A stretch of 64,000 bases of DNA from Hanstruepera neustonica (lineage in GTDB: Bacteria > Bacteroidota > Bacteroidia > Flavobacteriales > Flavobacteriaceae): the NCBI RefSeq assembly GCF_002895005.1, contig NZ_POWF01000001.1, forward strand, positions 124,001 through 188,000. The letters run 5' to 3'. Position numbers and translations under genes: made by a program. Below are positions 1 to 40,005 of the stretch, piece after piece. Numbering within the stretch: the stretch's first letter is position 1; the number at the start of each line of letters is the position of its first letter. The notes beneath the pieces were generated by a model, which did not search any database, was not told the DNA's origin, and saw only the letters and a program-made list of their open reading frames with translations.

Positions 1-1169
1 CATGGTGACCCTTGACTTGTATCAATACTAAACCAGGTCATGCCAACACTTTCCAAAAATGGATTTATGGCTTCAAACAAAGAAGCTACTCCAGTATTTA
101 AAGATTCACCAAACCCTGTTTGGTTAAACTTTTCGTTTAAGCCATTGTCAAATCCCCACCATTTCATAATATATCCAATAATGGATATCACTGTTGAAAT
201 TATAAAGGCTTTTCGTTTTCCCCATTTATTGGCTATTGCTGAAATAATAGGAATTACAACAAACGCCGTAATAACAGCTGTTATGGTTGAAAACCAAGCT
301 GGCCACGTACCTGCTTCTCCATAACTGCCATTGTACATGTAAAAAACAATAATATAAACGCTAAAAGCAGCTACCATTTGAAAGCCATTAAAAACCAAAA
401 AAGTAGCTCCACATAGTTTCATAAAAGGTTTGTTTTTAGAAACTTGAATAATACTTTGCCATAGCTCTTTTAAGTTTTTAGCTAATGTCTTTAAATTGAT
501 GTCCTTTCTGTTTTTCATGTGAGCTGCATCAATTCCTCTACAAAAAATAGCTGGTAATACACCTAACACAACACAAACCAAACCAACAATGATTGATAAA
601 TGCCTGACTCCTATATCTTGAGATTCATAAATCTGTGGATCAGCAATAATGACCCAAAACCAAGGTACAATCATCCAAGCAATTTGTCCCATAGTGTTTG
701 AAAATGCCATTAATCGTGTACGCTCATTATAATCTGAAGTCATTTCATATCCCAAACCAACCAAAGGTGTAGCATACATGGTATTACCTACCAAAAACAA
801 AATAGACAAGATTAAGAAGTACCAAAAATTATAAACTTGAGAATTTTCAGGAGACATTTGCCAAGTTAAGGCAAACAATAAACCGCTTAAGATAGCGCCA
901 ATAAATATATAAGGTCTTCGTCTTCCCCATTTTGACTTTGTATTGTCTGAAATAAAGCCCATAATAGGATCGGTTATGGCATCGAAAAATCTGGGTAGAG
1001 CTCCTAAAATTCCAGCATAAAGCGGATCCATTCCAAAGGCAGTCAACAAAAAAAACATGAAGAAGCCTAATGCTCCAGGCAATAAATTCAAAACAAAATG
1101 TCCTGCACCAAATGCAGCTTTTTGTCCAATTGGTACTTTGTCTTTAGCAGCGGTTTTATAATGTGACAT
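1..1169 (-). CDS. MFS sugar transporter of the GPH (glycoside-pentoside-hexuronide:cation symporter) type, 3' end outside the window
   Basis: This is an inner-membrane carrier that probably imports glucose or beta-glucan oligosaccharides with a cation. The reading frame starts with ATG at 1169 and stays open to the left edge, so about 389 residues are visible and the C-terminus is missing. The N-terminal part shows the GPH signature: a hydrophobic helix, then DAITDPIMGFISDNTKS followed by WGRRRP, the loop after the second helix that is typical of the MelB/GPH group. It begins 22 bases after the GH30 gene on the same strand, so it is the last visible gene of the beta-glucan operon. Its place next to a cytoplasmic glucan phosphorylase suggests that it carries oligosaccharides rather than only glucose; that substrate is inferred. 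Confidence 0.88.
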   Translation of the reverse strand, partial: MSHYKTAAKDKVPIGQKAAFGAGHFVLNLLPGALGFFMFFLLTAFGMDPLYAGILGALPRFFDAITDPIMGFISDNTKSKWGRRRPYIFIGAILSGLLFALTWQMSPENSQVYNFWYFLILSILFLVGNTMYATPLVGLGYEMTSDYNERTRLMAFSNTMGQIAWMIVPWFWVIIADPQIYESQDIGVRHLSIIVGLVCVVLGVLPAIFCRGIDAAHMKNRKDINLKTLAKNLKELWQSIIQVSKNKPFMKLCGATFLVFNGFQMVAAFSVYIIVFYMYNGSYGEAGTWPAWFSTITAVITAFVVIPIISAIANKWGKRKAFIISTVISIIGYIMKWWGFDNGLNEKFNQTGFGESLNTGVASLFEAINPFLESVGMTWFSIDTSQGSP

Positions 1170-1191: not shown

Positions 1192-2697
1192 TTAGTATTT
1201 ATCTATTACAATGGTTTGCAAAGCCTGTGGATTGATTTGTAAATTCACAAGATTACCATTTAATTCAAGCGTATAGTGTTTAGGTTTGGTTTCTGGATTA
1301 AAAACAACAAGTGCTAAAGATTGGTTAGGGTTTTCAACAGCGGTAACCAATAATGACTTATCTGAATTATCAATATGAATTACCTTTGCACCAGGCCTGA
1401 TATATTTACTAAAATGTGCCATGACATAATACAATGGCGTGAAATAGACTTCATCTGCCTGTGGGTCTACAATAACTGGTGCAACACACCAATTTTCAAA
1501 CCAATTTGGGCCTCCTTGTCTATCGAGAACCATATTCCAATCTACCCAGCCATCAACCCAATTGTTCAGGCACCCAATAATATCTCTGGCATAACGATTT
1601 ACAGGAGCATACTTTGGGTGCAGGTATTTTTCATCTTCTGCTGCCCAATCCCAGCCCCAATCTGTGGCTTCTTTTTTCCAATACCAAGCATCATCTTTCC
1701 ATTTTGGTACTTCGGAATCCACACAACCTTCTGTTTCAATTAAGAATTTGTTTGGTGCTTTTTGATGTGCATATTGCAAGGCTACTGGAAATACTTCATA
1801 GGTGCTTTCGTACCAATGAATGGCCGTTCCGTCAAAATATTTTGAAGATGCTTCTGTGGCATACATAACATCTACCCATTCTTTTAAACCAGCTCTATTT
1901 TGATCGTAACCTAAAATTTTCACATCTCTTTTCCCCTCTGCTTCTAATTTTGGTCCTAAATGATTCTGAACAAAATCTGTTTCTTCAGCTGGGTTAAAAT
2001 GCATACTTTCCCAGTTATTACCATTACCATGTGGTTCATTTACTGGCGTAATTCCCCAAATATCAATTCCTTCAGCTTTATAGGCTTCTAAATACTTATT
2101 AAAATACAAAGCAAATGCGTCATAAAACTCTGGTAGTAATTTTCCGCCAACATATTTTTTATTGTCTTTCATCCAAGGCGGAGCAGTCCAAGGTGAGGCT
2201 ATGATTTTAAACCCATCTTTTGAAGTGGCCATAGCGTCCTTTATCATAGGAATAAGATCTTCTCTATCTTCTTCAATAGAAAAATTAGTTAATTCTAAAT
2301 CTCCTTCATCTGGTGCATAGGTGTAATTATTTAAAGAGAAATCGCACGAAGCTATATGGGTTCTCGTTAAAGAATAGCGTGCACCATCTTCAGAAAAATA
2401 GGCATCTAACACTTTTTTTCTATTAGCTTTACTGAGCTTGTTTAATAAATATGCTGAAGATTCTGTAAATGAACCTCCAAACCCAGTGATGGTTTGATAT
2501 TTCTTTTCAGGGTTTATTTTTAATATGGCCGAAGAATCAGCGGTTTCAAAATCTTGGCGTTTGGTTAGTTTGTTTCCACTAGCGGAAGTTTCATAAACCT
2601 CAACTTTTAAAGTCTTATTTTGTTTTTCTTGATTACAACTAACCATAAACCCTAAAAAAAGACAAGCCATTATATAGCCTAGTGATTTCATATTCAT
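1192..2697 (-). CDS. GH30 family glycoside hydrolase lipoprotein (probable beta-1,6-glucosidase/glucanase)
   Basis: The 501-residue protein has a lipoprotein signal with the acylated cysteine at about residue 21, followed by a GH30 catalytic (beta/alpha)8 barrel and its small beta-sandwich. The acid/base glutamate is E221 in TPVNEPHG, and the nucleophile is E323 in the IETEGC motif, equivalent to the SEAC motif of human glucocerebrosidase. GH30 enzymes of marine Flavobacteriia that sit next to GH17 and GH16 genes remove the beta-1,6-linked glucose branches of laminarin, and this is the likely role here. It is expected in the periplasm or on the outer membrane. The gene lies 19 bases downstream of GH17 in the same operon. 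The family call is firm; the linkage specificity is inferred from context. Confidence 0.92.
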   Translation of the reverse strand: MNMKSLGYIMACLFLGFMVSCNQEKQNKTLKVEVYETSASGNKLTKRQDFETADSSAILKINPEKKYQTITGFGGSFTESSAYLLNKLSKANRKKVLDAYFSEDGARYSLTRTHIASCDFSLNNYTYAPDEGDLELTNFSIEEDREDLIPMIKDAMATSKDGFKIIASPWTAPPWMKDNKKYVGGKLLPEFYDAFALYFNKYLEAYKAEGIDIWGITPVNEPHGNGNNWESMHFNPAEETDFVQNHLGPKLEAEGKRDVKILGYDQNRAGLKEWVDVMYATEASSKYFDGTAIHWYESTYEVFPVALQYAHQKAPNKFLIETEGCVDSEVPKWKDDAWYWKKEATDWGWDWAAEDEKYLHPKYAPVNRYARDIIGCLNNWVDGWVDWNMVLDRQGGPNWFENWCVAPVIVDPQADEVYFTPLYYVMAHFSKYIRPGAKVIHIDNSDKSLLVTAVENPNQSLALVVFNPETKPKHYTLELNGNLVNLQINPQALQTIVIDKY

Positions 2698-2716: not shown

Positions 2717-4012
2717 CTATCGATGAGCCATTAATTCTTCATGTGATGGCGGCACCAAAACATCAACCATTAACGATTTGTATTCACCGTTGTAGGTTTT
2801 TGAAATTGCATTGCCATTTCGGGTTAAACCTTTAAAAACACCTTTGTCTACCAACTCCCAAATGGGATATTTGGCTTGACCATCTATTGTAAATAGCCCA
2901 AAATGATTTTCAGATCCCTTTGGATTATGGGCATCTTTCCATTTTTCATTGAATGCTTCAAAATAAAAGCAGGAAATGTTATTGTTATTTGTCCATTCCC
3001 TTATTTGCCTGTAATAAAGCCCTTGTTTATACTCATCAGTGGCTTTAGAACCATTTGGTCCATAATGACCGTTAGACACGCTGGCCCAGCCTGTTTCTCC
3101 TATATGTATGGGTTTGGTTATGCCTAAACTTTTTACATAATTAGAAACACTATCATATTGTTTTTTTGAAAATTGAATAGCCCGTTTCATGGCTGCATTA
3201 ATTTTTTCAATACTGGATAATTCTGTTTCATCTTCAGGAACTACCCAAAATTGTGGGTTATAATGCGTATTATGATATGGGTAAGTGTGCATTGAAATAT
3301 AATCAACGGCTTCAATTAATTTATTTAAATCCTCATTATGATATTGGCTATCACCTCCTCCCCAAGATGCAAAATCATCGGAGCTTGTTATCCATAAATC
3401 TTTTGGAAGTTTATCTTCCTTTTTCAAGTCTTGTAAATGGGTAACCCATTTTAAAATGACATGAGGCTGCACATAGTAACTTGTTGCCCATTTTACCATG
3501 GCCTCATTACCTACAGCTATAATTTTCACTATATCAGGAAATGCATTTGCTAATTTTACGGCACGTTCAATTTCTCCTGCATTGTTGGGACTTTCTATAT
3601 CGTGATTGGGAGCTTGATCTGTCCATGCATTTAAACAGTCTATCCAAGCACCTAGCATGACGTACATTTCAAAATTTGGGTCTTCAGATTTTAACTCTTT
3701 AATAGCCTTCAATACGTTAGGCGCATGATCTAGTTGTACGTTGTAGGTACGTAAAATTTTAATTCCCATGGCAGACAATAGTCTCATATCATTTTTAAGC
3801 TGCTTAATGGTTGGCTGACTATCTCTGGATATCTCTCTGTAACCACCATAGGATATTGCTAGATATTCTGGATTACCCAAAATATCTTTTGCTGTTAAGT
3901 TCTTCACTTTTTTCACAGGTACTGTATTGCTCTTTTTTGGGTTTGAATCATTACATGAAAACATAACTATTGATAAACAGAAATAGATGATATGTAATGA
4001 TGTTATTTTCAT
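2717..4012 (-). CDS. GH17 family beta-1,3-glucan hydrolase lipoprotein
   Basis: The 431-residue protein carries a lipoprotein signal with its cysteine at residue 20 (VMFSCND). The rest matches the GH17 barrel: the first strand motif ISYGGYRE, then MGIKILRTYN, the acid/base glutamate E170 in VGNEAM, and the nucleophile E306 in HIGETGWAS. GH17 enzymes in Bacteroidota hydrolyse linear beta-1,3-glucan in an endo or exo fashion and usually prefer debranched laminarin, which fits the GH30 enzyme encoded next to it. It is expected to act in the periplasm or on the cell surface. It starts only six bases after the phosphorylase stop codon, so the two are almost certainly cotranscribed. Confidence 0.93.
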   Translation of the reverse strand: MKITSLHIIYFCLSIVMFSCNDSNPKKSNTVPVKKVKNLTAKDILGNPEYLAISYGGYREISRDSQPTIKQLKNDMRLLSAMGIKILRTYNVQLDHAPNVLKAIKELKSEDPNFEMYVMLGAWIDCLNAWTDQAPNHDIESPNNAGEIERAVKLANAFPDIVKIIAVGNEAMVKWATSYYVQPHVILKWVTHLQDLKKEDKLPKDLWITSSDDFASWGGGDSQYHNEDLNKLIEAVDYISMHTYPYHNTHYNPQFWVVPEDETELSSIEKINAAMKRAIQFSKKQYDSVSNYVKSLGITKPIHIGETGWASVSNGHYGPNGSKATDEYKQGLYYRQIREWTNNNNISCFYFEAFNEKWKDAHNPKGSENHFGLFTIDGQAKYPIWELVDKGVFKGLTRNGNAISKTYNGEYKSLMVDVLVPPSHEELMAHR

Positions 4013-4018
4013 TGGTTT

Positions 4019-7000
4019 TTATTCTTTTAAAGAAACTAGTATATAGTTTATTTCACCTTTTCTTTTAAAGACGCTCTCACTTGATTTTATATCCATAATT
4101 AGAGAATCAAAGACTTCTGATTTACCATTGTTTTTGACTACTTCAATAGAACTTTGACTAGATAGTTTATATACGATAGGCACTTGACAATAGGTGAAGC
4201 AAATAGATTTTTCATCGACAGGCAATTTTTTGATTTCGTTATTCAGTGCTGTGTAAACAAAGGTTTTAGGTTCTTTTAAGAATTCATTGCCTCTTAATAG
4301 TTTAGGGTTGAAGACTATTTTTCCGTTTTCCACAAAAACACCTAATTCACCAAAACGACATAGAATATCTTCTTTTACTTGACCTGTCATTCCGGGTTGT
4401 TGAGCGCCTTTCCCTAAAGGTGTATGCGAATATGGATCTGTTGGAAGGGCTCCATATAGTTTTGGCGATTTGTGAACACCAATACCTTCGTTAATTTCAT
4501 AGTAATGGTCCAACAAGCCTCCAATAGTCACTTCACTCTCACCATCTTTGTACGCTTTCAAACTGGTTTCTTGAACTGCCAACAATAACTTTGATACCAT
4601 GTGCCAGTAAATGGAACCAAGACCTTCATATCCAAAAAATGTTCCCGAACGTCCTGTAAACGCCTTATGATTAAACAGTTCTTCATAGGTGTTTAAAAGT
4701 AAGGTTCTGTCTTTTTTAACAAGTGCTTCATACTTTTGTGGTAACGCATCAAGAGCTTCCTTCAATCTATCTGCATTATTAAAGTTGCCATTAAAATGGT
4801 AACTATTTAAAACATCTTGTTGAATAATCTGCTTATTTCCATCCTTGAGTAATTGTTGCAACAATTGAGACTGCTCAACAGCTTGTTTAGGTAGCTTATT
4901 TTTTTCAAAAAATCCTGGAAGCTCCTTGTTTGGATATAATAAATAACTATACTGATCTGGCCTGAACAAAGCACTAGCTTTTAAGGCGTTTAAAACTTCT
5001 AACGATTGCTCTCCAGAAATATAACCTGAACTTAAAACAGCTACTTGTCCTTCCAGCATTTCTGGTAAATATGAAATTGCTATTTCAGAATCACCTTTAA
5101 CAGTCATTAAATTGTAAGCGTGATAGAGTTTGTCTTCACGTTGATTGGCGTTGATAGAATGCTCAAGATAGGCATTGGATAAATCTAGAAACTGTGAAAT
5201 ACTAGCATTAGTTATGTTGCCTTTATTTCCTGAAAATCCGTTATCGTAAATTTTCAATCTAAAATCACTTCCGGCTTGACCTAGTCCATCTAGCACCAAT
5301 TTTCTATCGCTATCTGAAAAACCAGTGTTTAGGTGATTTTTAAAATCATTAAAAGTGTTCAGTATTCCATCAAAAAACACTTTTAGTTCTTCTGAAACTT
5401 CAAAAGATTCGGTTTCAGTATTTGATACTATGTTTTCAAAAAAGCTAATGAATCGTCTCAAATAATATAGCGTAACCATAGAAACACCGTTTCCTACCAA
5501 GGCATTATTGGCATCGTTCCATTCCGGTCTTTGCGTATTCATCCAAATACCGCCTTCAGGTATAAAATTGGACAATTTTGCCAAAACAGTTGCCAAAAGC
5601 TTTTCCATTAAATTAGCCTTACAGATGTCTTTTGTTTTATCTCTCAACAAAGCGCCATCAGCTCCAAACTCTTCACGTAAGTGATGTATTTCGGCATCAA
5701 GTGCATCATTAAAAACAATGGTGTCTTTTGGGTTTTTTAACAAATCTGAATAAGCTTTTATCTTGTATGGTACGTTGGCATACACAAACATATTCTCATT
5801 AAAATAAGTAGCTAATTTATGTGGATAATGACTTTCTATAATTTCTAAAAACTTGAGGAGGTAAATAATTTGGTGGTCTCCCCAATAACCTATGTAAGAC
5901 CATGGATCATCTGGCTCAATAGTTTCCCAATCAAAACCATCTTTTGTAACTCTGTAAGGATTGTACCCATCAAAGGTTGTTGCATTTAAGAATTTATGAA
6001 TCATACCTTCAATAAATTCTGGATACGCATGTGCTAGGGCTTCCCAATTCTGAAAGATATCACGCCAATTGCCTTCGTAGTCTAAAATTTTGGAACCATC
6101 AACCTCACTTCTTGTGTTAATTGAAAACTGATTCCATGGACGACTTGGATCGCCATGTCTTCTACTGAATTTTAATGGTAAATATTCATAACAAAGCCTT
6201 TTAAAATCACTGTTATTATCAGCGTTTGCGAGACCTTTTAGGTGTTCCAGACTAAAGGTTTCTGGTAAACTATTTAATGCATGCGCCTTTTCTTTATAGA
6301 CCTGTTTATTCGCTTTTTGTAAATATGGTATAACGTCGGTTTTTTCAATTTGATAGTTGTCGTCAAAAATACCTCCACGCATAATGTTGAATAAGGTATT
6401 TGAGAAATGACGCGCATTGCGCAACTTGTTTCTGCTTAATTGCATGGCATCAGATGCTCCTGCCAATTCTAACAAGTGCTTGGTACCTAAATCAACATTC
6501 TCTAAAACTTGAGCTCTTAAGTCAACCTCATTTTTTATTTTTTCAGAAATACCAACCACATCACTAATGCTTTGGTTAACATTGGCAACAAACAACCAAT
6601 CTTGTTTCTGTCCTGGCTCCAAGTTAAGATCAGTAGAAATAAAATAGGCGCCTTTTTCGGCTTTTACATCGGTTTCATTTTGAATAGTTTCGCCTCTTCT
6701 AAATCTATCCAATTGTAAAGACGAAAGAAGATATTTTGGTTTTTCAAATCCTAAACTCCAAACGGTATTTGCCTTTAAGGCTTCGCTAGGTTCAGCCTTG
6801 TCAACTATTATGGCACTTAAAGCGAATATGCCGATTCCTGTTTCTTCTTGCAACTCACTACGCTTGTAGGCATCAACCAAATTACTGTAACTATTTTGTA
6901 GGTCTGACCCAACTCCGAAAGGAATTAAATTTTGAAGGCCATCTAAAACACCAATTTTCACAATAGCGCTTGAATGATTAACTAGCTTTGATTTTTTAAT

Positions 7001-7531
7001 AAACCCAAACGTATTACTGGTACACCACTGATAGCTAAAAGTCAGTTCTAAATCATGGTTAATTTCTTCAAAAACCACTTTATTACCATATTGATTTTTG
7101 TAGACATTTCTTTGAATATTATAAATACCATAGTACTTGCTTGAAAAAGGCTCCCATACATGAACATTTCCGTTTTTATTGGCTTGCAGTATGGTTTTGC
7201 TTCCGGTGGTTTCAGCAGATTCTGTTATTTTATCATCCGTGTAATATGGAAACAAAGCATGATTGGCATCTTTTCTTCCTGCCGAAAGACCGCCATTACT
7301 TGATATAAACATCCAATGATTGGAATTACTGATGAGACTCATAAAAAATGGTCTCATTTTATCTGAATTGGAAATTTTATAATATACCTCACCTTCAAAA
7401 TTTATTAATTCACCTGTAATCTCTTCTTCTTTAAAAGAAGCCTGATTATTGCCGATATAAATTTTGTTGGAATTCATGCTTGTTTTTCTTACTTCTAAAT
7501 TTTGATTGTTAGTTAAAATTTTTGTTGTCAT
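4019..7531 (-). CDS. GH149-type beta-1,3-glucan phosphorylase
   Basis: The 1170-residue protein has no signal peptide and should be cytoplasmic. Its size and layout fit the GH149 beta-1,3-glucan phosphorylases, relatives of GH94 that cleave beta-1,3-oligoglucosides with phosphate to give glucose-1-phosphate. It has an N-terminal beta-sandwich part, then an (alpha/alpha)6 barrel. A motif RPEWNDANNALVG near residue 670 resembles the region carrying the general-acid Asp in GH94 enzymes, and a C-terminal glycine-rich block near residues 1040-1070 (TPLGKGAQQPGMTGQV) may take part in phosphate binding. The gene sits between GH16 and GH17, as expected for laminarin use. The assignment to GH149 rather than GH94 rests on length, missing export signal and neighbourhood. 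An alternative start at Met19 is possible. Confidence 0.8.
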   Translation of the reverse strand: MTTKILTNNQNLEVRKTSMNSNKIYIGNNQASFKEEEITGELINFEGEVYYKISNSDKMRPFFMSLISNSNHWMFISSNGGLSAGRKDANHALFPYYTDDKITESAETTGSKTILQANKNGNVHVWEPFSSKYYGIYNIQRNVYKNQYGNKVVFEEINHDLELTFSYQWCTSNTFGFIKKSKLVNHSSAIVKIGVLDGLQNLIPFGVGSDLQNSYSNLVDAYKRSELQEETGIGIFALSAIIVDKAEPSEALKANTVWSLGFEKPKYLLSSLQLDRFRRGETIQNETDVKAEKGAYFISTDLNLEPGQKQDWLFVANVNQSISDVVGISEKIKNEVDLRAQVLENVDLGTKHLLELAGASDAMQLSRNKLRNARHFSNTLFNIMRGGIFDDNYQIEKTDVIPYLQKANKQVYKEKAHALNSLPETFSLEHLKGLANADNNSDFKRLCYEYLPLKFSRRHGDPSRPWNQFSINTRSEVDGSKILDYEGNWRDIFQNWEALAHAYPEFIEGMIHKFLNATTFDGYNPYRVTKDGFDWETIEPDDPWSYIGYWGDHQIIYLLKFLEIIESHYPHKLATYFNENMFVYANVPYKIKAYSDLLKNPKDTIVFNDALDAEIHHLREEFGADGALLRDKTKDICKANLMEKLLATVLAKLSNFIPEGGIWMNTQRPEWNDANNALVGNGVSMVTLYYLRRFISFFENIVSNTETESFEVSEELKVFFDGILNTFNDFKNHLNTGFSDSDRKLVLDGLGQAGSDFRLKIYDNGFSGNKGNITNASISQFLDLSNAYLEHSINANQREDKLYHAYNLMTVKGDSEIAISYLPEMLEGQVAVLSSGYISGEQSLEVLNALKASALFRPDQYSYLLYPNKELPGFFEKNKLPKQAVEQSQLLQQLLKDGNKQIIQQDVLNSYHFNGNFNNADRLKEALDALPQKYEALVKKDRTLLLNTYEELFNHKAFTGRSGTFFGYEGLGSIYWHMVSKLLLAVQETSLKAYKDGESEVTIGGLLDHYYEINEGIGVHKSPKLYGALPTDPYSHTPLGKGAQQPGMTGQVKEDILCRFGELGVFVENGKIVFNPKLLRGNEFLKEPKTFVYTALNNEIKKLPVDEKSICFTYCQVPIVYKLSSQSSIEVVKNNGKSEVFDSLIMDIKSSESVFKRKGEINYILVSLKE

Positions 7532-7654: not shown

Positions 7655-8470
7655 TTATTGATACACTCGAACGTAGTCCACATACATAGTCTGTGGGAAA
7701 ACCGTATTGTCGTTTGGAGGTCCTCCATAATTACCACCTACTGCAACATTCATGATTATGTAAAACGGTTGGTTATCAAAAATCCAAGGACCAGGAACAT
7801 CCTCTGGTGTTATTTGATTGTACAACACATCATCTACATAAAAGTTAATGTATCCTTGACCCCATTCAATACCAAAGACATGGAAACCTGTATCAAACCT
7901 ATCATTTACTAAATCGTAAGCTTTTGATATAGATTCTCCTGCTGAATATCCAGGTCCGTGTACTGTTCCATTTATAATAGTTGGTTCACTCCCTCGGTTT
8001 TCCATGATGTCAATCTCGCCACAGGCTGGCCATTCAACCACATCAGAATTTGAGCCTAACATCCAAAAGGCTGGCCACATACCTTGTCCCCATGGTAACT
8101 GAATGCGGGCTTCAAAACGTCCGTATTTTTTTTCAAATAAATCTTTAGTTTGAATTCTGGCCGAAGTAAAACCTGAACCTTCATAAGATTCCTCACGAGC
8201 AGTAATCATCAGCATACCATCTTGAACAGTAATATTTTCAGGTCTATCGGTATAATACTGTAGTTCATTGTTTCCCCAACCAGGTATTCCTTGTTCAGAA
8301 CCATTGCCTATGTCGTAATTCCACTTACTGGTATCTATTGGTCCATCTGTATTAAACTCATCTTGCCATACCAGTTGATTTAAGGTAGTAACCGTTTGGG
8401 TGTCATCTGTAGAACAACCCAAAAACCCAACTAGGACAAATAGAATAATAATATATTTTGATTTTTTCAT
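7655..8470 (-). CDS. GH16 family endo-beta-1,3-glucanase (laminarinase) lipoprotein
   Basis: The 271-residue protein begins with a lipoprotein signal whose cysteine is residue 19 (GFLGCS). A single GH16 jelly-roll domain follows, with the typical opening WQDEFN, the substrate-cleft segment MWPAFWML, and the catalytic motif GEIDIME, giving nucleophile E152 and acid/base E157. The extra residue in this motif (E-I-D-I-M-E) is typical of laminarinases (subfamily GH16_3) rather than lichenases. It probably makes the first endo cut in beta-1,3-glucan at the cell surface. There is no carbohydrate-binding module in the chain; the neighbouring lipoprotein may serve that purpose. Confidence 0.94.
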   Translation of the reverse strand: MKKSKYIIILFVLVGFLGCSTDDTQTVTTLNQLVWQDEFNTDGPIDTSKWNYDIGNGSEQGIPGWGNNELQYYTDRPENITVQDGMLMITAREESYEGSGFTSARIQTKDLFEKKYGRFEARIQLPWGQGMWPAFWMLGSNSDVVEWPACGEIDIMENRGSEPTIINGTVHGPGYSAGESISKAYDLVNDRFDTGFHVFGIEWGQGYINFYVDDVLYNQITPEDVPGPWIFDNQPFYIIMNVAVGGNYGGPPNDNTVFPQTMYVDYVRVYQ

Positions 8471-8490: not shown

Positions 8491-10440
8491 TTAGTCAATT
8501 ACCTTCAAATCGTCATAATAGTAAGTGCTACCATCTCCAGCCAAACCTGGTACAAATTCAAAAAACACAACTATTCTAACATAATCTACAGAAGGATTAT
8601 ATAAACCACTAAAGTCCCACTCCAGTTCTTCCCATTCATTTAAAGTGGTTGTAGATGCATCCAATTCTATTCCAGCCGTATTATTCTGGTCTTCTAATCG
8701 AACACGGATAGGTATACCACTTTTAGGTGATAACACTTTCATTCTAAACTTTTGTGATGTTGAAAAGTCCATTGGTGAATCTAAATTCAAAAACGTCCCC
8801 GCAAAAAATTGAGCGCCAGGTGTTTTTATAGATCTCATTACCAATGACGTTGGGTTTATTCCGCCAGTCATTGGATTGGCTTCTATGGATGAGTCTGCAC
8901 CTTCAAACCCTTCAAAATCATAAACCAAACTGGTAGATTGGAAACCGACAGGTAACGCCACTTCGGTTGCTGCAGAATCGTCAACTGGTGGTGTTGGGTC
9001 AACAACCTCTTTGTAATAATAAATGTTGTCTACATAAATATTTGATATGGTAGGGACATTAGCACTATTATTTGAAATAAAGAAAATTAATCCTAATTCT
9101 GATCTGCTTGCCAATCCTGTAAACTCTCCTAATGGAATATCATAGCTTCCCCAACCATTAGAAACTAAATCAGAAGCTGGGATTACTACCGAGCCCGAAG
9201 TTTCGTTTGCAGTTTGTACACCATTAATTAATTGTACTCTTAATTGGTCTCCTGGATCCAAGGCCTCGTTTACATTAATATCTACGTGCATGTGCGTCAT
9301 TTCAGTAGCATTGACAGGAGCTACATTTAAGAATGTCCCAATACCTACAAAATTCAAATCGGTGTAGTTGATAACTTGGTCGCCATTTATATCAATTGGT
9401 GGTGCTCCTCCTTGAGTGGTTTGTCCATCACCATTAAAAAACCCGTTGTAATAGTCTACAGGTACATTGTCATAGGCATCACTAAAAACAGATATCACAT
9501 TTTCAGGTGCTACGTCAGGAACTGGAGCCGTTTCAAATTCGCCCAAAGAAATAATAGTTAATGAACCTTCTGCATCTACACCATTAATTGATGCTGTAAT
9601 CATTGCTGTACCCGAACCAACAACAGAAACAAAGCCAAATTCATCTACAGTTGCCACGCCAGGATTAGAAGAGGTAAAATCAAAATAGGATGGTGCTGCC
9701 AAAACGGTTTGGTCTTGTCCGTTTCCTAGATTAAAGGTTTGTGTTAAACCTGTTAGTGGTCTGTTTGCGCCAATAAATGTTTCTGACACAATATCTTGAC
9801 CATTTAAAATTGCCGGTCTAGGTTGTGCCACAGTTCCTAATCTTTCAAACCTAATTTCATCTAACCAAATGGTATATCCAAAACCATTAGTGGCTTGTGT
9901 TCCTGCAGCATATCTAAATACACCTCGTTCTTCTACTAACTTTGAAGGGTCTGGAATGGGAACCACATACTTGTTCCAACCCGTTCCAATACTCACTCCA
10001 ACAATAGATGCTTGGTATTTATTATCAATAAAATCTTCACCAAATCCTATGGCATCCAAGCTCACCCCTTGAGAAGCTTTGGCATAAAACGTTAAGGCAT
10101 CAAAGCCTGTTAAATCTCTTCCCGCGCCATCAACTCTTAAAATAGCACCAGCATAGTTTCCTTCTGGATCATCTGCATTAGGCACACTAATTTCAATTGA
10201 GGTATTTCCTTTGTAAGTTTCTGTACCATCAAATGAGACAGCATCAGGTTTAGAACCGTTATAAGGGAAATAAAAATTACTTCCTAGAGCTATTGGTCCA
10301 TCAGTAAAAACAGCTCCTTCTTTGGAAAACCCAGCTAAAACGGCATCATCGGATAAATCGCGTTCACAACCTGCCAAAACCAATAATACCAAGGTTAAAA
10401 GCAGTGTGTTTTTAAAATAATTGTATTTTATATTTTTCAT
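8491..10440 (-). CDS. Multidomain surface glycan-binding lipoprotein
   Basis: The 649-residue protein has a lipoprotein signal with cysteine at residue 25 (LAGCER) and no recognisable catalytic motif. Three beta-sandwich-like units can be seen: an N-terminal module (about 45-200) ending in the typical CBM phrase WLDEIRFE, a bacterial Ig-like (Big_2) domain around 215-300 with SSNPGVATVD and GSGTAMITAS, and two further CBM-like modules around 310-480 and 500-649, each ending in a YVDNIYYY or YYYDDLKV strand. A short DINGDQVINYTD sequence near residue 350 looks like one dockerin or EF-hand-type calcium loop. It probably holds beta-glucan at the surface for the GH16 and the barrel-fused glycosidase, filling the place of SusE/SGBP-type proteins. 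Confidence 0.78.
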   Translation of the reverse strand: MKNIKYNYFKNTLLLTLVLLVLAGCERDLSDDAVLAGFSKEGAVFTDGPIALGSNFYFPYNGSKPDAVSFDGTETYKGNTSIEISVPNADDPEGNYAGAILRVDGAGRDLTGFDALTFYAKASQGVSLDAIGFGEDFIDNKYQASIVGVSIGTGWNKYVVPIPDPSKLVEERGVFRYAAGTQATNGFGYTIWLDEIRFERLGTVAQPRPAILNGQDIVSETFIGANRPLTGLTQTFNLGNGQDQTVLAAPSYFDFTSSNPGVATVDEFGFVSVVGSGTAMITASINGVDAEGSLTIISLGEFETAPVPDVAPENVISVFSDAYDNVPVDYYNGFFNGDGQTTQGGAPPIDINGDQVINYTDLNFVGIGTFLNVAPVNATEMTHMHVDINVNEALDPGDQLRVQLINGVQTANETSGSVVIPASDLVSNGWGSYDIPLGEFTGLASRSELGLIFFISNNSANVPTISNIYVDNIYYYKEVVDPTPPVDDSAATEVALPVGFQSTSLVYDFEGFEGADSSIEANPMTGGINPTSLVMRSIKTPGAQFFAGTFLNLDSPMDFSTSQKFRMKVLSPKSGIPIRVRLEDQNNTAGIELDASTTTLNEWEELEWDFSGLYNPSVDYVRIVVFFEFVPGLAGDGSTYYYDDLKVID

Positions 10441-10450
10441 AATCTTAATA

Positions 10451-13400
10451 TTATTTGCCTATGTTAATATGAATATAGGTTCTAATTTCCCATTCATCGC
10501 CATCTGGAAAACCAACTGGACTTAAAATAGGTAAAGTTGAAAACCCTTCCACAGCTGCAGGAGCATATCTGTTAGAATATTGGTCTAGAGTACGGTATGT
10601 TCCTCTAATCCCTATTTGTGTGTTTGGGAGTATAAACCAATCTGGTTTGCCAAGGGTTGTAGATAAATCAAGCATCACTTGAACAGGGAATGTTAAGTTA
10701 AAATCGCGATGGTAATCATAAGGTCCCCAATCATTAAATTTTGATGAGTACACTAATTTCAATTTTTTATAAATAACCCTAACATCACCTCCATAGCGTT
10801 CTATTAATCTGGCGTCACTACCATTTGCTTGGGCATTTCCGAAATATAAGTTCGCTATTATCCCAAAATCTGAATGCATTTTAGAAACAATTCTAGTATT
10901 AGATTCCCATAGGTCTTCTGCTGGTGCAGCACCAGGGAATGCAAACGTTGTTCTTCCGTCAGGTAAAATACCAATTGCCGCATCTTGTGATGTAGGTAAA
11001 TGACGGTAAACAAAACCCGTACTGAAAGCGAACTTGGCATCTTCTTGTCTGTCATTGTCCCACTGATACATCCAGGTACCTGGAGTAGGGTCAAAGGTCA
11101 AAAGTAACTCACCGCCTACTGTTTCTCTATTTGCTCTTACTGCAAACGGGTCATCCTGAATGTTTCTCAATCTTCCTGGTGCTCCAACATCTCCTGGCAT
11201 TGGATCTACCAAGGGTTTTTGCCATAAGAAATTAGGAGCTACTTGCAAGTTTCCAAATGAATAGGTAAACCCTGTTAAAAAGTTGGTTTGGTTTCCACTG
11301 CCAGAATCCTTTAGTCTCCAACCTGTGAATGTTTGAGTGGCATCTGCTCCTCCATTAGCAACCAATCCCATAACGGCTCCTTGTGCATACCAGTTAAATC
11401 GCCCTTGAGAATAAGTGATTTTGGCTTTTCCTCCCCAATTATCTTTACCACTTATTTCATCTTCATAAACGGTATAGTTTCCTGGCTCACCTACAGCATA
11501 TTGAAACTTACGTCCATTTAAAGGTTGACCTCCCCAAATTCCACCAATTTCAAGACCTACATTTCCTATTTTGGTTTTAGCATACAGGGATGCCCTTCTA
11601 GTCTGTGGTAATGGTACTGCAATAGATGATACTGCTTGAGGCGCATCATCAATATCATTATGAAAAACAGCAGCAACATCAAATTTACCTAAGGTTCTTT
11701 CATATTTTAAAAGAAATGCCGGGTTAGCTCCCCACCATAACTGTGGCCCAAAAGCGGCCTTTAGCCCTTTTAGAGATCCTTTGGCATCAATTTCCATACC
11801 TGAAATCTCACCATTATAAATGTCTAAATTTGGACCATAATTGGCTTCGGGATATAACCCAAAAAAGTCTCCCTCATATTGCCAATGATAGTGATTGGTT
11901 CTGTAAAACCCTCTTAAATCAAAGTTTTTGTGGTTCCATTCATACTCTGCACTATACACTTTTACGCGCTCAATATCTGAAAGTTCTAAATCACCATCAG
12001 TCGTATTTACAGCACGTCTTCTAGCTCTATTTTCGTAAAATATTTCATCAATTGGATTTTCTGCCACATTACCAACAATGTTCACATTCACTTCTGCCCG
12101 CATATTTGCTGTTGGATTGGCCTCAACACCTACATAAAAAGATTGCATATGATCAAACCCTAATTCATCTGGGTAAACAAGTTCATCTTCGCTGGCTTGA
12201 TCAGGAGTGGTTATTAAACTTCCGCCAGTATTAAAGGTGGTGAATTCTGCTCTCAATTGACTGATTCCTAGTTTTTGAGAACTTTGTGATTGAAGTGCTG
12301 CCTTGTCTCCTCTGGCTCTTAAAACAGCATCCATTATTTGTATATTCTTGAAATAGTTATTAAGGAATTCTGGGGTCATTCCTTCATCATATGGGTTTAA
12401 TTGGTGAGCTTCCTTAAGTGTGTAGTAAGCTGCACGTGGGTAAAGTTCATATAGTCCTCTTTCGCTTGTTGGGCCTTTAGCACAAATTCCAAACCACTCT
12501 TCATTCATGTTGTTTTCACCTGGTGCCAAATCATGAGGATAACCACCATTGGCCCATGAAGCATTGCTGTCATGCAGGTCAGCATTCTCTCTGTCATCAA
12601 AACCATATTTCCACCAACCATCGCTAAATTGAAAGGTGAAACCCCCAATTGAAATACCTGTTTTACCGAGACCTGCAGCATGTTCATAAATCTCTTTCCA
12701 ATTTCCTAACATGTAGTAAGCCTGCATTTTTTGGTCTTCCTTCTTTTCTATTTCATTGAAGGCGTCTGCACCAAATTCTGTGAACAATAAAGGCATATCC
12801 AATTTTTCTTTGACTACATCGAACATATCCGTAAAGGAAACGCCTCGATACGTGTTTGTACCATAAATATCTACGTCTTTACATTCTTCGGCAATAATAT
12901 CTATAAACAAAACATCTCCGTTACAAATTGCTACTGGGTGTGATGTGTCTGCTGCCTTCATGCGTTTGGCAGCTTCATTCATTAATCGGTACATAGGCCT
13001 TCCTCTTTTTTCACCTATATATTCCTTTTCCTTCTCATCATCTGGAAAATCTTCGGTTTCTGCACCTTGCCAAAACAAACCATAGTTGTTTTCATTACCA
13101 AGTAGGTACATGAGCAGACCTGGTGTGTTTTTGTATTCATTAACCAAAGCATCCACTTCAGATAAAAGGTGTTCTTGTGTTTTGGGATCGTCATAAATGG
13201 TTATAGGCGTCCAAACACCATCAAGGGTTAATCCGTAGCGTCCAAATGAATGGTTAAGCATGGTGTAAATGCCATACTTTTCATAAATATATTTAATCCA
13301 TCTGGCTGGTACACCAGTGTATTGTCTAATTACATTTACGCCCATGTTTCTTAACAAGGACATTTCTGTGTCAAGACCTTCTTTAATAATGTCGTCTGGG

Positions 13401-13597
13401 TTTTCCCAAAATCTGGCATCTACGGTGTTTTTTCCAATGGGAATGTAATCCCAATTCATACCATTGACAATAAAGTCTTTACCGTTAACCATCAAACGCA
13501 TTCCGGAAGCATCTTTTTTGACCGTGACCATGTTTTGCTGCGAAAAGCTAAAACAGGTAAAAAAGAAAAGAATTATTCCTGCTAGATTGTTTCTCAT
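10451..13597 (-). CDS. TIM-barrel glycosidase fused to an outer-membrane beta-barrel
   Basis: This 1048-residue protein has a signal peptide (about 1-20) and two very different halves. Residues about 25-430 form a clan GH-A TIM barrel: the opening FIVNGMNWDYIP, the strand MGVNVIRQY, an acid/base candidate E169 in LLGNEN and a nucleophile candidate E274 in FTEFGAD. The spacing of 105 residues and the general layout recall beta-1,3-glucanosyltransferases (GH72) as well as the GH2/GH5 barrels; the exact family is uncertain. From about residue 530 to the end there are alternating aromatic-rich strands of an outer-membrane beta-barrel. Linkage of an enzyme to a barrel would fix it at the cell surface or periplasmic face. 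It begins the operon and precedes the glycan-binding lipoprotein by ten bases. It may hydrolyse or transglycosylate beta-glucan; a pore role is speculation. Confidence 0.75.
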   Translation of the reverse strand: MRNNLAGIILFFFTCFSFSQQNMVTVKKDASGMRLMVNGKDFIVNGMNWDYIPIGKNTVDARFWENPDDIIKEGLDTEMSLLRNMGVNVIRQYTGVPARWIKYIYEKYGIYTMLNHSFGRYGLTLDGVWTPITIYDDPKTQEHLLSEVDALVNEYKNTPGLLMYLLGNENNYGLFWQGAETEDFPDDEKEKEYIGEKRGRPMYRLMNEAAKRMKAADTSHPVAICNGDVLFIDIIAEECKDVDIYGTNTYRGVSFTDMFDVVKEKLDMPLLFTEFGADAFNEIEKKEDQKMQAYYMLGNWKEIYEHAAGLGKTGISIGGFTFQFSDGWWKYGFDDRENADLHDSNASWANGGYPHDLAPGENNMNEEWFGICAKGPTSERGLYELYPRAAYYTLKEAHQLNPYDEGMTPEFLNNYFKNIQIMDAVLRARGDKAALQSQSSQKLGISQLRAEFTTFNTGGSLITTPDQASEDELVYPDELGFDHMQSFYVGVEANPTANMRAEVNVNIVGNVAENPIDEIFYENRARRRAVNTTDGDLELSDIERVKVYSAEYEWNHKNFDLRGFYRTNHYHWQYEGDFFGLYPEANYGPNLDIYNGEISGMEIDAKGSLKGLKAAFGPQLWWGANPAFLLKYERTLGKFDVAAVFHNDIDDAPQAVSSIAVPLPQTRRASLYAKTKIGNVGLEIGGIWGGQPLNGRKFQYAVGEPGNYTVYEDEISGKDNWGGKAKITYSQGRFNWYAQGAVMGLVANGGADATQTFTGWRLKDSGSGNQTNFLTGFTYSFGNLQVAPNFLWQKPLVDPMPGDVGAPGRLRNIQDDPFAVRANRETVGGELLLTFDPTPGTWMYQWDNDRQEDAKFAFSTGFVYRHLPTSQDAAIGILPDGRTTFAFPGAAPAEDLWESNTRIVSKMHSDFGIIANLYFGNAQANGSDARLIERYGGDVRVIYKKLKLVYSSKFNDWGPYDYHRDFNLTFPVQVMLDLSTTLGKPDWFILPNTQIGIRGTYRTLDQYSNRYAPAAVEGFSTLPILSPVGFPDGDEWEIRTYIHINIGK

Positions 13598-13897: not shown

Positions 13898-16702
13898 CTA
13901 CAAATCCAAGATGTAGTCCGTTAAGCTAGTTTCATGCTCTAATTCCATTTTTTTACGCAAACGATATCGCTTTACTTCAACGCTTCTAACAGAAATATTT
14001 AACAAAGGTGCTATTTCCTTTGAAGAAAGATTCAGTCTTAAATAAGCACATAATCGAAGATCATTGTGTGTCAAGGATGGGTGCTTGGACTTCACTTTTT
14101 TTAAGAAATCTTTGTCAGCATTATTGAAGGCTTCTTCAAAAAACTCCCAATCGTTTGTATTGTTGATATTTCTATCAATCAATCTGATTACGGGATTTAG
14201 CTTCTTGTCAGTATTTATTTTCTTTAACTCTTCCTTAATATTATTTAAAAACTCGTTTTTCTTTATTAGACTCATTGTTGAAATTGCCAACTCACGATTT
14301 TTATTTTCAATATCTTGAGTTAAACTGTCATTCTTGAAATTAACTATTTGCTGTTGGTTTTCAAGTTCTTTCAGTTCCAGATCTTTTTGGGTTTGCTCCA
14401 GTATTTTCTTTCTTTGGTTTTTATAGTATGCCCTGTAAGTTAGATGGATTGTCAAAAGCATAATGATACCACTAATGGTGTAAATTGCTATAAACAGATT
14501 TGAAAGATACCATGGCTTTTTAATTTGAAAGTTAAATGAAGCTGTATTTATGGTTTCAACATTTCCAATTTTTCCTCTAACTTTAAAAATATAATCACCA
14601 TGAGGCAAGTTTTCAAAAAAATGAAAATTTTCTGGAGACCAATCACTCCAGTTATTATTATATCCCTCTAAAAAATATTGATATCGCTTTTCAGAATATT
14701 TGAAGTATTCTGGAATACTAAATGAAAAATAAATATTATTGGTTTCATTATTAAATATTGATGATCCGTTAAGAGAAACTTTCTTCATTTCGGAATCAAG
14801 TGCACCAACTTCAACATGATTAATATGTATATTGAATTTATCGTCAGCCTTTAGTTTTGATAAATCAATTATTAAATAACCATTTGAAGTTCCTAGCAAA
14901 TAATGGTTATCATATAAATAACTAATATTCTCATATCCATTCTTATCATTAATAAGTTTTTTAGGTAACGGAATCGTTATTAGCTCCGGAATATTACTAA
15001 ATGAATCAAAATCAAGAAAGGCTAGATTGTGCTTTGAGAATCCCCATAATTTATTTTTTTCGTCTACAACAAGTTTACCAGATGTATACTCAATTTCATT
15101 ATACAGTTTTGAAAAAATAGAATCTTTAAAAAATCCATCTTTTAAATTATCATATTTAAAGACACCACTTTGATTTGCATAGAAAACAGACTCTTTATAT
15201 TGGATCAACCCGGAATTAAGATCTTTTTCAAAATCTGGTTCTTTGTCAACTTTTATAGTTTCCTTAAAAGTTGAATCCAATTCAATTTTAAAAACACCCT
15301 TATATTCATGACTTACAAAAACCTTACTGGCAATTAATTCAAAGTACCTGGAAGAAATATCGAATCCTTCAATTTTATTCCGAAAACGCCAATCACCATC
15401 TTCCCTTTCCAAGATATTTAGTCCGTCATAGGTTCCTTGAATCAATAGGTTTGGATTATCTTGAATTGATTTAACAGCCCATGTGCCTTGGGTGTTGGGA
15501 ATCAAAACAGCTAGATTATTATCTTTAATAACAAACGTGCCTCGATCATGGCCACAGAATAACTCACCATTGATTTCCGACAAACCCCAAACTTGTCCAT
15601 TTGTTTCTGGAATAAGTAAAAACTCTTCGTTACTAGCAATTCTCCTATAAAATAATCCTTGATTTGTCCCTAAATAAATATTATTGTTAAATACAATTGA
15701 CGCATAAATAGTTCCTAATTTGCCTGAATAATCATAATATATCTCATAAGGCGAATTACTTTTTATAAAATTGATGCCGTTATCTAATCCAAGCCAAATA
15801 TTATTATCAATATCTTCAATTATTGAAAGAACGGTATTATTTTGAAGCCCCCTAGTTTGATTAATATGGTAAAGGAATTTCCCGTCGTAGTCAAGAGCAA
15901 TCAAGCCATCAGAAATGGTTCCTAGTAAAATAGTTTTGTCTTTTAATATATCAGCTGAATAGACTGTAATGCCCTTAAGGCTATCACTATATTCAATATC
16001 CCATAAACTGAAATCACCTTCATTGAAATAATAGAAACCTTTCCTTTCTGTTAAAACCAAATAACCGTTGTTATAATCAAACATATTTACAACTCTGGAC
16101 TCCAAAATTTCAGGTGAATCAATAAATAATTCTGAAGTGCCATTTTCAATTTTAAAAATACCCTCTCCAAATACCTGATAGAAAACTTGGTCATCAATAT
16201 TGTACATTTTAACAATGCCCGATTTTGGCTCCACAACATCAAAGCTTTCGTCTAGAGTATTGTATATGTATATTCTGTCCAGTGATTGAAATAATACCCA
16301 GTTTTTTATGTTAATGATTTTCCAAAATTCTTCATCCTCAATGATGCTTTCAAGTTTATTGGATAAAGATTTGTAGATTAATGTTCCTGTTTCGTCTTTA
16401 GCCCAATAGCCAAATTCCATGTAACTACCAGTATATACTCGGTCCCCAACAACATGAACAGATCTCATGACAGTTTCATTAGGTGTTTGATAAAAATTCC
16501 ATGTAGCCCCGTTATACTCTAATAAACCTTTATTATTGGCTACATAAATATATTTGTTGGGTGATTGTGAAATATCCCAATTTTGATTATCAGCATCATA
16601 TGCTTGAGGCGTAAAGCTTTCTATTGGTGGCAGTTCTTGAGCAAAAATATTCCCATACAATAGAAAAAATAGCATTAACACTATTTTAGATGAATATCCC
16701 AT
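13898..16702 (-). CDS. Membrane-spanning regulator: propeller sensor, Y_Y_Y domain, LuxR-type HTH
   Basis: The 934-residue protein is a one-piece sensor and transcription factor. A signal peptide (1-21) leads into a long periplasmic beta-propeller of Reg_prop-like repeats (for example TVLSIIEDIDNNIWLGLDNG), then a triple-tyrosine (Y_Y_Y) domain at about 650-740 containing YQYFLEGYNNNWSDW. A transmembrane helix near 750-772 is followed by a cytoplasmic coiled coil and a C-terminal LuxR-type helix-turn-helix (LSSKEIAPLLNISVRSVEVKRYRLRKK). There is no histidine kinase or receiver domain, which separates it from hybrid two-component regulators. Its position 300 bases upstream of, and parallel to, the glucan operon makes it the likely inducer-responsive activator; the ligand is presumably a beta-glucan oligosaccharide. 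Confidence 0.9.
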   Translation of the reverse strand: MGYSSKIVLMLFFLLYGNIFAQELPPIESFTPQAYDADNQNWDISQSPNKYIYVANNKGLLEYNGATWNFYQTPNETVMRSVHVVGDRVYTGSYMEFGYWAKDETGTLIYKSLSNKLESIIEDEEFWKIINIKNWVLFQSLDRIYIYNTLDESFDVVEPKSGIVKMYNIDDQVFYQVFGEGIFKIENGTSELFIDSPEILESRVVNMFDYNNGYLVLTERKGFYYFNEGDFSLWDIEYSDSLKGITVYSADILKDKTILLGTISDGLIALDYDGKFLYHINQTRGLQNNTVLSIIEDIDNNIWLGLDNGINFIKSNSPYEIYYDYSGKLGTIYASIVFNNNIYLGTNQGLFYRRIASNEEFLLIPETNGQVWGLSEINGELFCGHDRGTFVIKDNNLAVLIPNTQGTWAVKSIQDNPNLLIQGTYDGLNILEREDGDWRFRNKIEGFDISSRYFELIASKVFVSHEYKGVFKIELDSTFKETIKVDKEPDFEKDLNSGLIQYKESVFYANQSGVFKYDNLKDGFFKDSIFSKLYNEIEYTSGKLVVDEKNKLWGFSKHNLAFLDFDSFSNIPELITIPLPKKLINDKNGYENISYLYDNHYLLGTSNGYLIIDLSKLKADDKFNIHINHVEVGALDSEMKKVSLNGSSIFNNETNNIYFSFSIPEYFKYSEKRYQYFLEGYNNNWSDWSPENFHFFENLPHGDYIFKVRGKIGNVETINTASFNFQIKKPWYLSNLFIAIYTISGIIMLLTIHLTYRAYYKNQRKKILEQTQKDLELKELENQQQIVNFKNDSLTQDIENKNRELAISTMSLIKKNEFLNNIKEELKKINTDKKLNPVIRLIDRNINNTNDWEFFEEAFNNADKDFLKKVKSKHPSLTHNDLRLCAYLRLNLSSKEIAPLLNISVRSVEVKRYRLRKKMELEHETSLTDYILDL

Positions 16703-39456: not shown

Positions 39457-40005
39457 TTAAGCATCTGGATTTTTACTTCTGATGTTTTTGTAAATTTTAA
39501 ATCCAAGCATCAGTAGCATTCCTAAAACGAAAATTCCAATAACACCAAAAATCCAATTAAATGCGCTTTTCAAAATCACCAAGAATACAACGGCAAACAA
39601 AATAAAGGTGGCACCTTCATTCCATAGTCTCATAAAATTAGACGATTTACAAACCTCATCACGCTGCAATTGTTTATAAAACTGATGGGTTTTTAAATGG
39701 TAAATAATCAATAAGACCACAAATCCTAATTTAACATGCATCCACGATTGCTGCAACCACGATGGCACTAAAATAAGTAACCAGACTGCAAAGGCTGTCG
39801 CTAAAATAGCCGATGGCCATGTTATGATATTCCATAAGCGTTTGGCCATAATCTTCAATTGTTTTCCTAAAATTTCTTTTTCGGGTGATGGTTTATGAAA
39901 GGCTTCAATTTGATAAACAAACAATCTTGGAATGTAAAATAATCCAGCAAACCAGGTAATGACAAAAATGAGGTGAAGGGATTTGATGTAGTTGTAGTAC
40001 TCCAT
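39457..40005 (-). CDS. hemJ: HemJ protoporphyrinogen IX oxidase
   Basis: The 182-residue protein has four or five membrane helices and the HemJ opening YIKSLHLIFVITWFAGLFY with the following PRLFVY block, where His and Arg/Tyr residues are conserved. It also contains the helix with MHVKLGFVVLLIIYH. HemJ oxidises protoporphyrinogen IX to protoporphyrin IX, the step before ferrochelatase. Most other heme genes are 4 to 14 kb away in this window, and no hemG or hemY is seen, which supports the assignment over the related CopD label. Its start shares a base with the stop of the upstream BNR-repeat gene. Confidence 0.86.
   Translation of the reverse strand: MEYYNYIKSLHLIFVITWFAGLFYIPRLFVYQIEAFHKPSPEKEILGKQLKIMAKRLWNIITWPSAILATAFAVWLLILVPSWLQQSWMHVKLGFVVLLIIYHLKTHQFYKQLQRDEVCKSSNFMRLWNEGATFILFAVVFLVILKSAFNWIFGVIGIFVLGMLLMLGFKIYKNIRSKNPDA

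Follow-up and report, generated by a model that had tools for sequence, protein, structure and literature searches.

Of the algal sugars found in the sea, laminarin is a major one. Among the described systems that come closest to the one reported here, SusC/SusD pairs place a large barrel gene beside a lipoprotein gene in a polysaccharide utilization locus (PUL), and the Formosa protein FORMB_24740, of marine Flavobacteriia, joins a glucan enzyme of glycoside hydrolase (GH) family 17 to a major facilitator superfamily (MFS) transporter within a laminarin locus (PMC6246565; papers cited by accession are represented here by part of their text). The latter is an inner-membrane protein, and its authors knew of no such fusion of a transporter and a carbohydrate-active enzyme (CAZyme) in other bacteria (PMC6246565). 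Here we describe a fusion predicted to sit in the outer membrane. The stretch analysed, hereafter the window, comprises 64,000 nucleotides of Hanstruepera neustonica (contig NZ_POWF01000001.1, positions 124,001 to 188,000), and one of its genes very probably encodes, to judge from structure models, a clan GH-A triosephosphate isomerase (TIM) barrel enzyme followed in the same chain by an outer-membrane β-barrel. We regard it as an evenly balanced proposition that this fusion, as a periplasmic enzyme akin to GH158 and GH157 joined to a plugless pore, would act with a neighbouring lipoprotein as an uptake unit for laminarin-type β-glucan, either replacing SusCD or working beside it.

The plus strand of positions 10451–13597 is riddled with stop codons, and the minus strand carries a single open frame of 1,048 residues, at the place where an initial annotation of the window had put it. 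The frame is not a chance one, because full-length or near-full-length copies, 69–94% identical, occur in the best 80 relative loci; a lipobox is found by simple pattern search in only 3 of 60 fusion relatives. The central claim of that annotation, an enzyme and an outer-membrane barrel within one chain, is borne out by structure prediction. Long β-strands are predicted from residue 443 to residue 1045 in the full-length model (mean predicted local distance difference test score, pLDDT, 70.6), and the C-terminal 618 residues, folded alone from an 81-row alignment, gave 24 membrane-length strands on manual count (mean pLDDT 71.8; predicted template-modelling score, pTM, 0.68). Both models being of modest confidence, the number is taken as about 24, within a range of 22–26. 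The annotated C-terminal barrel thus stands as a prediction, with its start at residue 443 and not at residue 530. A soluble β-sandwich, named in advance as the refuting case, was not seen in the barrel-only model or in either structural match list: all 50 matches listed by Foldseek and all 50 listed by VIA-align 2 are outer-membrane barrels, comprising TonB-dependent transporters, chitoporin, OprD-type porins, ushers, AlgE and similar proteins. With the barrel-only model, the PapC usher aligns over nearly the entire barrel (Z 14.0, 372 aligned, root-mean-square deviation (rmsd) 5.0) and AlgE over part of it (Z 16.5, 266 aligned). Near-full-length matches, among those listed, are ushers and TonB-dependent transporters, which have 24 and 22 strands, respectively.

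No Pfam family matched the window barrel; among its relatives, 1 of the 12 rows scanned (of 81) gave DUF6882 at E 0.08 and the rest gave none; and the sole sequence match in the PDB was an antibody chain (E 0.73). Many of its alignment columns are invariant. Its median identity to the window copy, 69.6%, compares with 69.3% for GH17 and 63.9% for GH149 in the same loci, which were chosen by likeness to the fusion, and by this measure the barrel is as conserved as those two enzymes. A SusC/RagA TonB-dependent transporter was considered and rejected: neither a plug nor an N-terminal extension domain was found, with no Plug and no CarbopepD match in a Pfam scan of the protein. Unlike SusC, the fusion has an enzyme domain in place of the plug and the carboxypeptidase-like N-terminal domain.

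The enzyme has the hallmarks of clan GH-A, a TIM barrel with Asn-Glu after strand 4 and Glu after strand 7. The catalytic pair named in the annotation, E169 and E274, is intact and, together with N168, invariant across all 110 fused, all 9 enzyme-only and all 4 distant relatives compared. The three residues align with residues of BuGH158 (PDB 6pal), in which an alanine change of E137 or E220 abolishes activity (PMC7157763). A profile of 16 relatives, searched against the PDB with the best 60 of 118 matches considered, placed GH158 first (9oro, E 4.8e-14; BuGH158, E 1.1e-11), followed by GH2 enzymes (from 9.2e-11) and by chain 9fz9 (2e-10), which has the same name and length as LaGH157 9g4n and which we read as GH157. 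VIA-align 2 also put GH158 on top (Z 25.9, rmsd 2.7, 272 aligned), with near-ties to a GH5 mannanase (Z 25.5), GH157 (Z 24.4) and many GH2 rows. GH158 thus gives the best solved match and is perhaps the closest family, but GH2 is close by profile and the structural Z scores are nearly tied. The only Pfam match in the TIM domain at E 0.05 is Glyco_hydro_2_C (residues 34–282, E 4.1e-7, above cut-off); GH2 membership was rejected, as no sandwich domains lie ahead of the TIM barrel and this one domain begins at residue 34. With GH158 (6pal and the 9oro series) the fusion shares the fold, the aligned catalytic residues and a β-1,3-glucan locus, but identity in structural alignments is 17–20%, and where BuGH158 has a C-terminal Ig-like domain, which may not define the family, the fusion has a predicted barrel with membrane strands from residue 443. 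With GH157 it shares the fold and a DGWWK motif, but the profile score is lower and the solved chain lacks a barrel. The nearest solved relatives of the enzyme, as judged from these matches, are the β-1,3-glucanases GH158 and GH157, and β-1,3-glucanase is its likeliest activity.

Retaining GH-A enzymes can transglycosylate, and the annotation had proposed kinship to GH72, with an enzyme that elongates or remodels β-1,3-glucan. Weak Pfam GH72 matches do occur in 6 of the 16 members of the alignment (best 1.9e-5), as against GH2_C in 15 of 16. For the window TIM domain itself, however, GH72 is not listed at E 1, GH158 and GH2 match better, and the operon is catabolic. No GH72 entry appears among the best 60 of the 118 PDB matches, which by itself proves nothing. 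The 105-residue spacing of the catalytic residues, offered as a sign of GH72, is not diagnostic, the spacing in BuGH158 being 83 (E137/E220; PMC7157763). We consider such a transglycosylase highly improbable.

The β-glucan locus that the annotation had recognized is seen in the neighbours of the fusion (Table 1). The operon runs in the order regulator, fusion, lipoprotein, GH16, GH149, GH17, GH30, MFS and GH17, with the last GH17 outside the window, and by its content of GH16, GH17, GH30 and GH149 it appears to be a laminarin-type locus. It holds no SusC or SusD. At its far end (L111:10673-13169, window 1–1169 and beyond), MFS and GH17 are separate neighbours, the two that Formosa has fused (PMC6246565). 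Among the best 80 relative loci, many of which lie on contigs cut short at their ends, which bears on these counts, the lipoprotein family is downstream of the fusion in all 80, with GH16 in 75, the regulator in 67, GH149 in 54, GH17 in 47, GH30 in 31, and MFS, SusC and SusD in 16 each.

The lipoprotein is the proposed partner of the barrel, and its gene tracks the barrel, not the enzyme. In a sample drawn across the phylum, we compared the surroundings of 32 fusions, reduced to 30 loci by dropping two on contigs shorter than 4 kb, with 8 enzyme-only loci; the comparison left out a ninth enzyme-only locus, whose contig measures 3 kb, and a broken fusion. The lipoprotein gene lies directly downstream in 29 of the 30 fused loci and beside the enzyme in 0 of the 8 enzyme-only loci (Fisher P 1.8e-7, relatedness ignored). 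In one enzyme-only locus (L177), a protein matches the window lipoprotein at 482 bits yet is not listed by the lipoprotein family model at E 10, a likeness that may reflect common domains resembling carbohydrate-binding modules (CBMs); in another (L178), two weak matches to the model (34 and 25 bits) lie over 6 kb away from the enzyme. A simple pattern finds a lipobox in 35 of 60 lipoprotein relatives, and many of those 35 share an acidic stretch like CERDLSDD; a Big-type domain is present in 15 of 20 family members. The C-terminal domain of the window protein resembles PDB 8qx6, from a PKD-domain protein (E 6.9e-7), which we take to be a laminarin-binding module. The lipoprotein gave no SusD match, a further difference from SusC/SusD pairs.

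The fusion of enzyme and barrel is a conserved family, apparently present in numerous bacteria of the sea. At least 580 of 585 candidate stretches in a first sequence set encode a relative, and the best 80 loci kept from it, from Flavobacteriaceae, Saprospiraceae, Lewinellaceae and others, are all fused. A second set comprised 395 genomes drawn across the phylum, the source genome included, with matches sorted by hand: 56 genomes matched, giving 33 fusions, of which a contig end splits one, along with 9 enzyme-only forms, 1 broken fusion and 13 distant or partial matches. The description of the union as rare does not hold within the Bacteroidota, where it occurs in 33 of these 395 genomes. A barrel profile matched in 30 of 296 genomes, in 28 fusions (that of G204 split by a contig end) and 2 decayed remnants (G235 and G119), with no intact free-standing barrel gene among the 296. 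Neither the whole protein nor the barrel profile found a paralogue in the source genome at E 0.001, and in the fetched loci no homologous barrel gene stands beside an enzyme-only form, the sole match being the broken fusion L118. A quick tree built from 123 TIM domains shows the enzyme-only forms dispersed between fusions, and its starred branches, some long and unsure ones among them, require at least five label changes. Past the stop codon of one enzyme-only gene (L119:2025-3690, plus strand), the first barrel residues can still be recognized in decayed form (barrel profile E 7.7e-11); at least that form therefore lost its barrel. Four enzyme-only forms (L113, L115, L116 and L120) have a lipobox by eye, and the signals of the remaining ones whose start is intact are plain or ambiguous; no type IX secretion system (T9SS) tail was seen by eye in the enzyme-only relatives. 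Two distant relatives (L124:5645-6703 and L125:5550-6545; 24–31% identity, 352 and 331 residues, lipoprotein-like by eye) lie near GH149 and GH17, so the link to β-1,3-glucan may predate the fusion.

That anchoring recurs by lipobox in some enzyme-only relatives, and that these forms are interspersed with fusions on the tree, would fit a barrel that merely holds the enzyme at the periplasmic side of the outer membrane, without specific transport. A 600-residue barrel is, however, a costly anchor where a lipobox suffices, and its many invariant columns, together with a lipoprotein that keeps to the barrel and not to the enzyme, speak against that role; we think a pure anchor unlikely.

The side of the membrane on which the enzyme lies can be read from the barrel model. 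Gaps between strands alternate, with a mean of 22.7 residues after odd strands and 5.2 after even strands (Mann–Whitney P 1.4e-4, for membrane strands picked by hand in a model of modest confidence); as exceptions, a 21-residue gap follows one even strand and 7-residue gaps follow two odd ones. Outer-membrane barrels carry their long loops on the outside, so the parity places both barrel ends, and hence the enzyme, on the periplasmic side, and the enzyme domain is probably periplasmic. Type V autotransporters share the order of N-terminal passenger and C-terminal barrel, which, together with a partly helical linker in the full-length model (residues 409–435), could suggest that the enzyme is carried outside through or by the barrel and cuts laminarin there. 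Their C-terminal barrel has 12 strands and the model about 24, on which ground type V identity was rejected; loop parity places the N terminus inside, a GH16 lipoprotein is already encoded in the locus, and several enzyme-only relatives combine plain signals with no T9SS tail. Display at the surface is accordingly improbable.

With the enzyme probably periplasmic, the proposed uptake unit would work as follows. The lipoprotein and GH16 would capture and shorten laminarin at the cell surface; glucan chains would pass inward through the barrel; the enzyme, tethered under the pore, would cleave them on emergence, and cleavage at the pore exit would keep an inward gradient without TonB; GH17, GH30, MFS and a cytoplasmic GH149 would complete the breakdown. 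The coupling of cleavage to entry through the protein's own pore, raised in the annotation, is a reasonable hypothesis. Its strongest form, a TonB-independent importer driven by hydrolysis under the pore, with the lipoprotein in the role of SusD and serving as a laminarin route in bacteria without a laminarin SusCD, is put forward tentatively, as a minority possibility.

The SusCD complement of the source genome (99.99% complete) bears on this proposal. Searches with three Pfam families found two SusD, and two SusC score over the model cut-off. One pair lies with GH13, GH65 and, by eye, a LacI-like regulator, in an α-glucan locus; the other (L131:4608-12664) has a T9SS-tailed arylsulfotransferase nearby, and no glycan enzyme was recognized beside it. 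The best matches (up to three each) of the source SusC to fusion-adjacent SusC reach 24–32% identity, and those of the source SusD to fusion-adjacent SusD 24–27%, where the fusion-adjacent sets are at least 47.6% and at least 42% identical among themselves. By these identities, the source genome is without SusCD of the type seen near the fusion elsewhere. Among the 33 fusion genomes, the PF07980 SusD family is absent from G255, G066, G051, G144 and G204; in a search of 12 genomes, the first three (99–100% complete) also had no PF14322 or PF12771 match, and the SusD of G144 and G204 belong to other types.

Several observations weigh against the uptake unit or its independence of SusCD. PF07980 SusD is present in 28 of the 33 fusion genomes, in 1 to 15 copies; of the 30 fused loci, 4 have SusCD at a distance of about 8 kb or less, as do 2 of the 8 enzyme-only loci; and SusC and SusD lie within 10 kb in 16 of the best 80 loci. 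The fusion is therefore not a strict replacement of SusCD. Laminarin SusC/D can sit far from the CAZymes, as in Maribacter (PMC11345257), so the two pairs of the source genome may yet be the carriers; by analogy, so may its unlinked TonB-dependent transporters, of which 30 further ones are indicated by TIGR04056 matches under the cut-off (32 in all). These points would favour an accessory porin, with SusCD elsewhere importing laminarin and the fusion only clearing short oligosaccharides. The source pairs, being unlike the fusion-adjacent ones and away from β-glucan genes, and the three fusion genomes with no SusD match argue against it, and we give this alternative a small chance. Other points concern the fusion itself. 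The models are of modest confidence (pLDDT about 71), the barrel alignment is shallow (81 rows, at least 61% identical in the barrel part), and the predicted barrel does not fix pore width, closure or plugging by loops. The loci share ancestry, so their counts are not independent events, and in the thirtieth fused locus, L168, the sole candidate lipoprotein is upstream (220 bits, against 322 with another set). The open-access literature searched held no biochemical data for the protein. In L168:6743-14203 (genome G144), a lipoprotein-like gene lies ahead of the fusion, and after the fusion comes an 816-residue protein that is GH18-like by eye.

Table 1. Features of the fusion gene and its operon in the window.
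Feature	Position	Strand	Detail or basis
Y_Y_Y/LuxR-type regulator, upstream of fusion	13898..16702	-	Domain matches
Fusion gene	10451..13597	-	1,048 residues; stop codon within span
Signal peptide, signal peptidase I (SPI)-like, residues 1–20	13538..13597	-	By eye
Clan GH-A TIM barrel, residues 24–430	12308..13528	-	Pfam, profile and structure matches, fold model
N168-E169, acid/base	13091..13096	-	Aligned with N136-E137 of BuGH158
E274, nucleophile	12776..12778	-	Aligned with E220 of BuGH158
Predicted outer-membrane β-barrel, residues 443–1048, about 24 strands, plugless	10454..12271	-	Structure models and structural matches
Surface-type lipoprotein, proposed barrel partner	8491..10440	-	CERDLSDD after lipobox; weak Big-type Ig match; C-terminal CBM-like domain
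GH16 glucanase, lipoprotein by eye	7655..8470	-	
GH149 β-1,3-glucan phosphorylase, no signal peptide by eye	4019..7531	-	1792.7 bits, cut-off 1150
GH17 glucanase, lipoprotein by eye	2717..4012	-	
GH30, lipoprotein by eye	1192..2697	-	
MFS sugar transporter, cut by window start	1..1169	-	

Elsewhere in the window, the minus strand encodes a 1,700-residue Reprolysin-type metallopeptidase with MAM, GEVED, fn3 and a T9SS sorting tail (57573–62675) and a 1,027-residue Sortilin-Vps10/BNR repeat protein (40005–43088).

The open-access literature searched, with supplements not covered, describes neither the fusion nor its barrel, but the gene may have been met under other names. A Muricauda laminarin PUL has a GH2 β-glycosidase at the position matching the fusion (PMC13188888), and because the Muricauda loci among the best 80 carry the fusion there, we infer that the two are the same gene. 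Laminarin PULs with an unclassified GH0 were highly expressed in a bloom metagenome-assembled genome, and one PUL of variant 1 is without susCD (PMC10108472); the GH0 of variant 1 is perhaps this protein, which is a guess. The Muricauda GH2 gene and the variant 1 GH0 have operon neighbours as for the fusion, and a barrel goes unmentioned in the parts of the two papers represented here (PMC13188888, PMC10108472). Four points come in addition to the initial annotation: the operon has no SusCD, the lipoprotein keeps to the barrel, relatives exist as the enzyme alone, and the enzyme probably lies in the periplasm.

It has been suggested that SusC/D expression could serve as a proxy for polysaccharide use (PMC6298971). 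If the fusion does import laminarin without SusCD, surveys based on SusC/D would leave some of the flux uncounted, loci of this type would fall outside any PUL definition that requires SusCD, and uptake through an outer-membrane pore, driven by an enzyme, would become a mechanism open to test.

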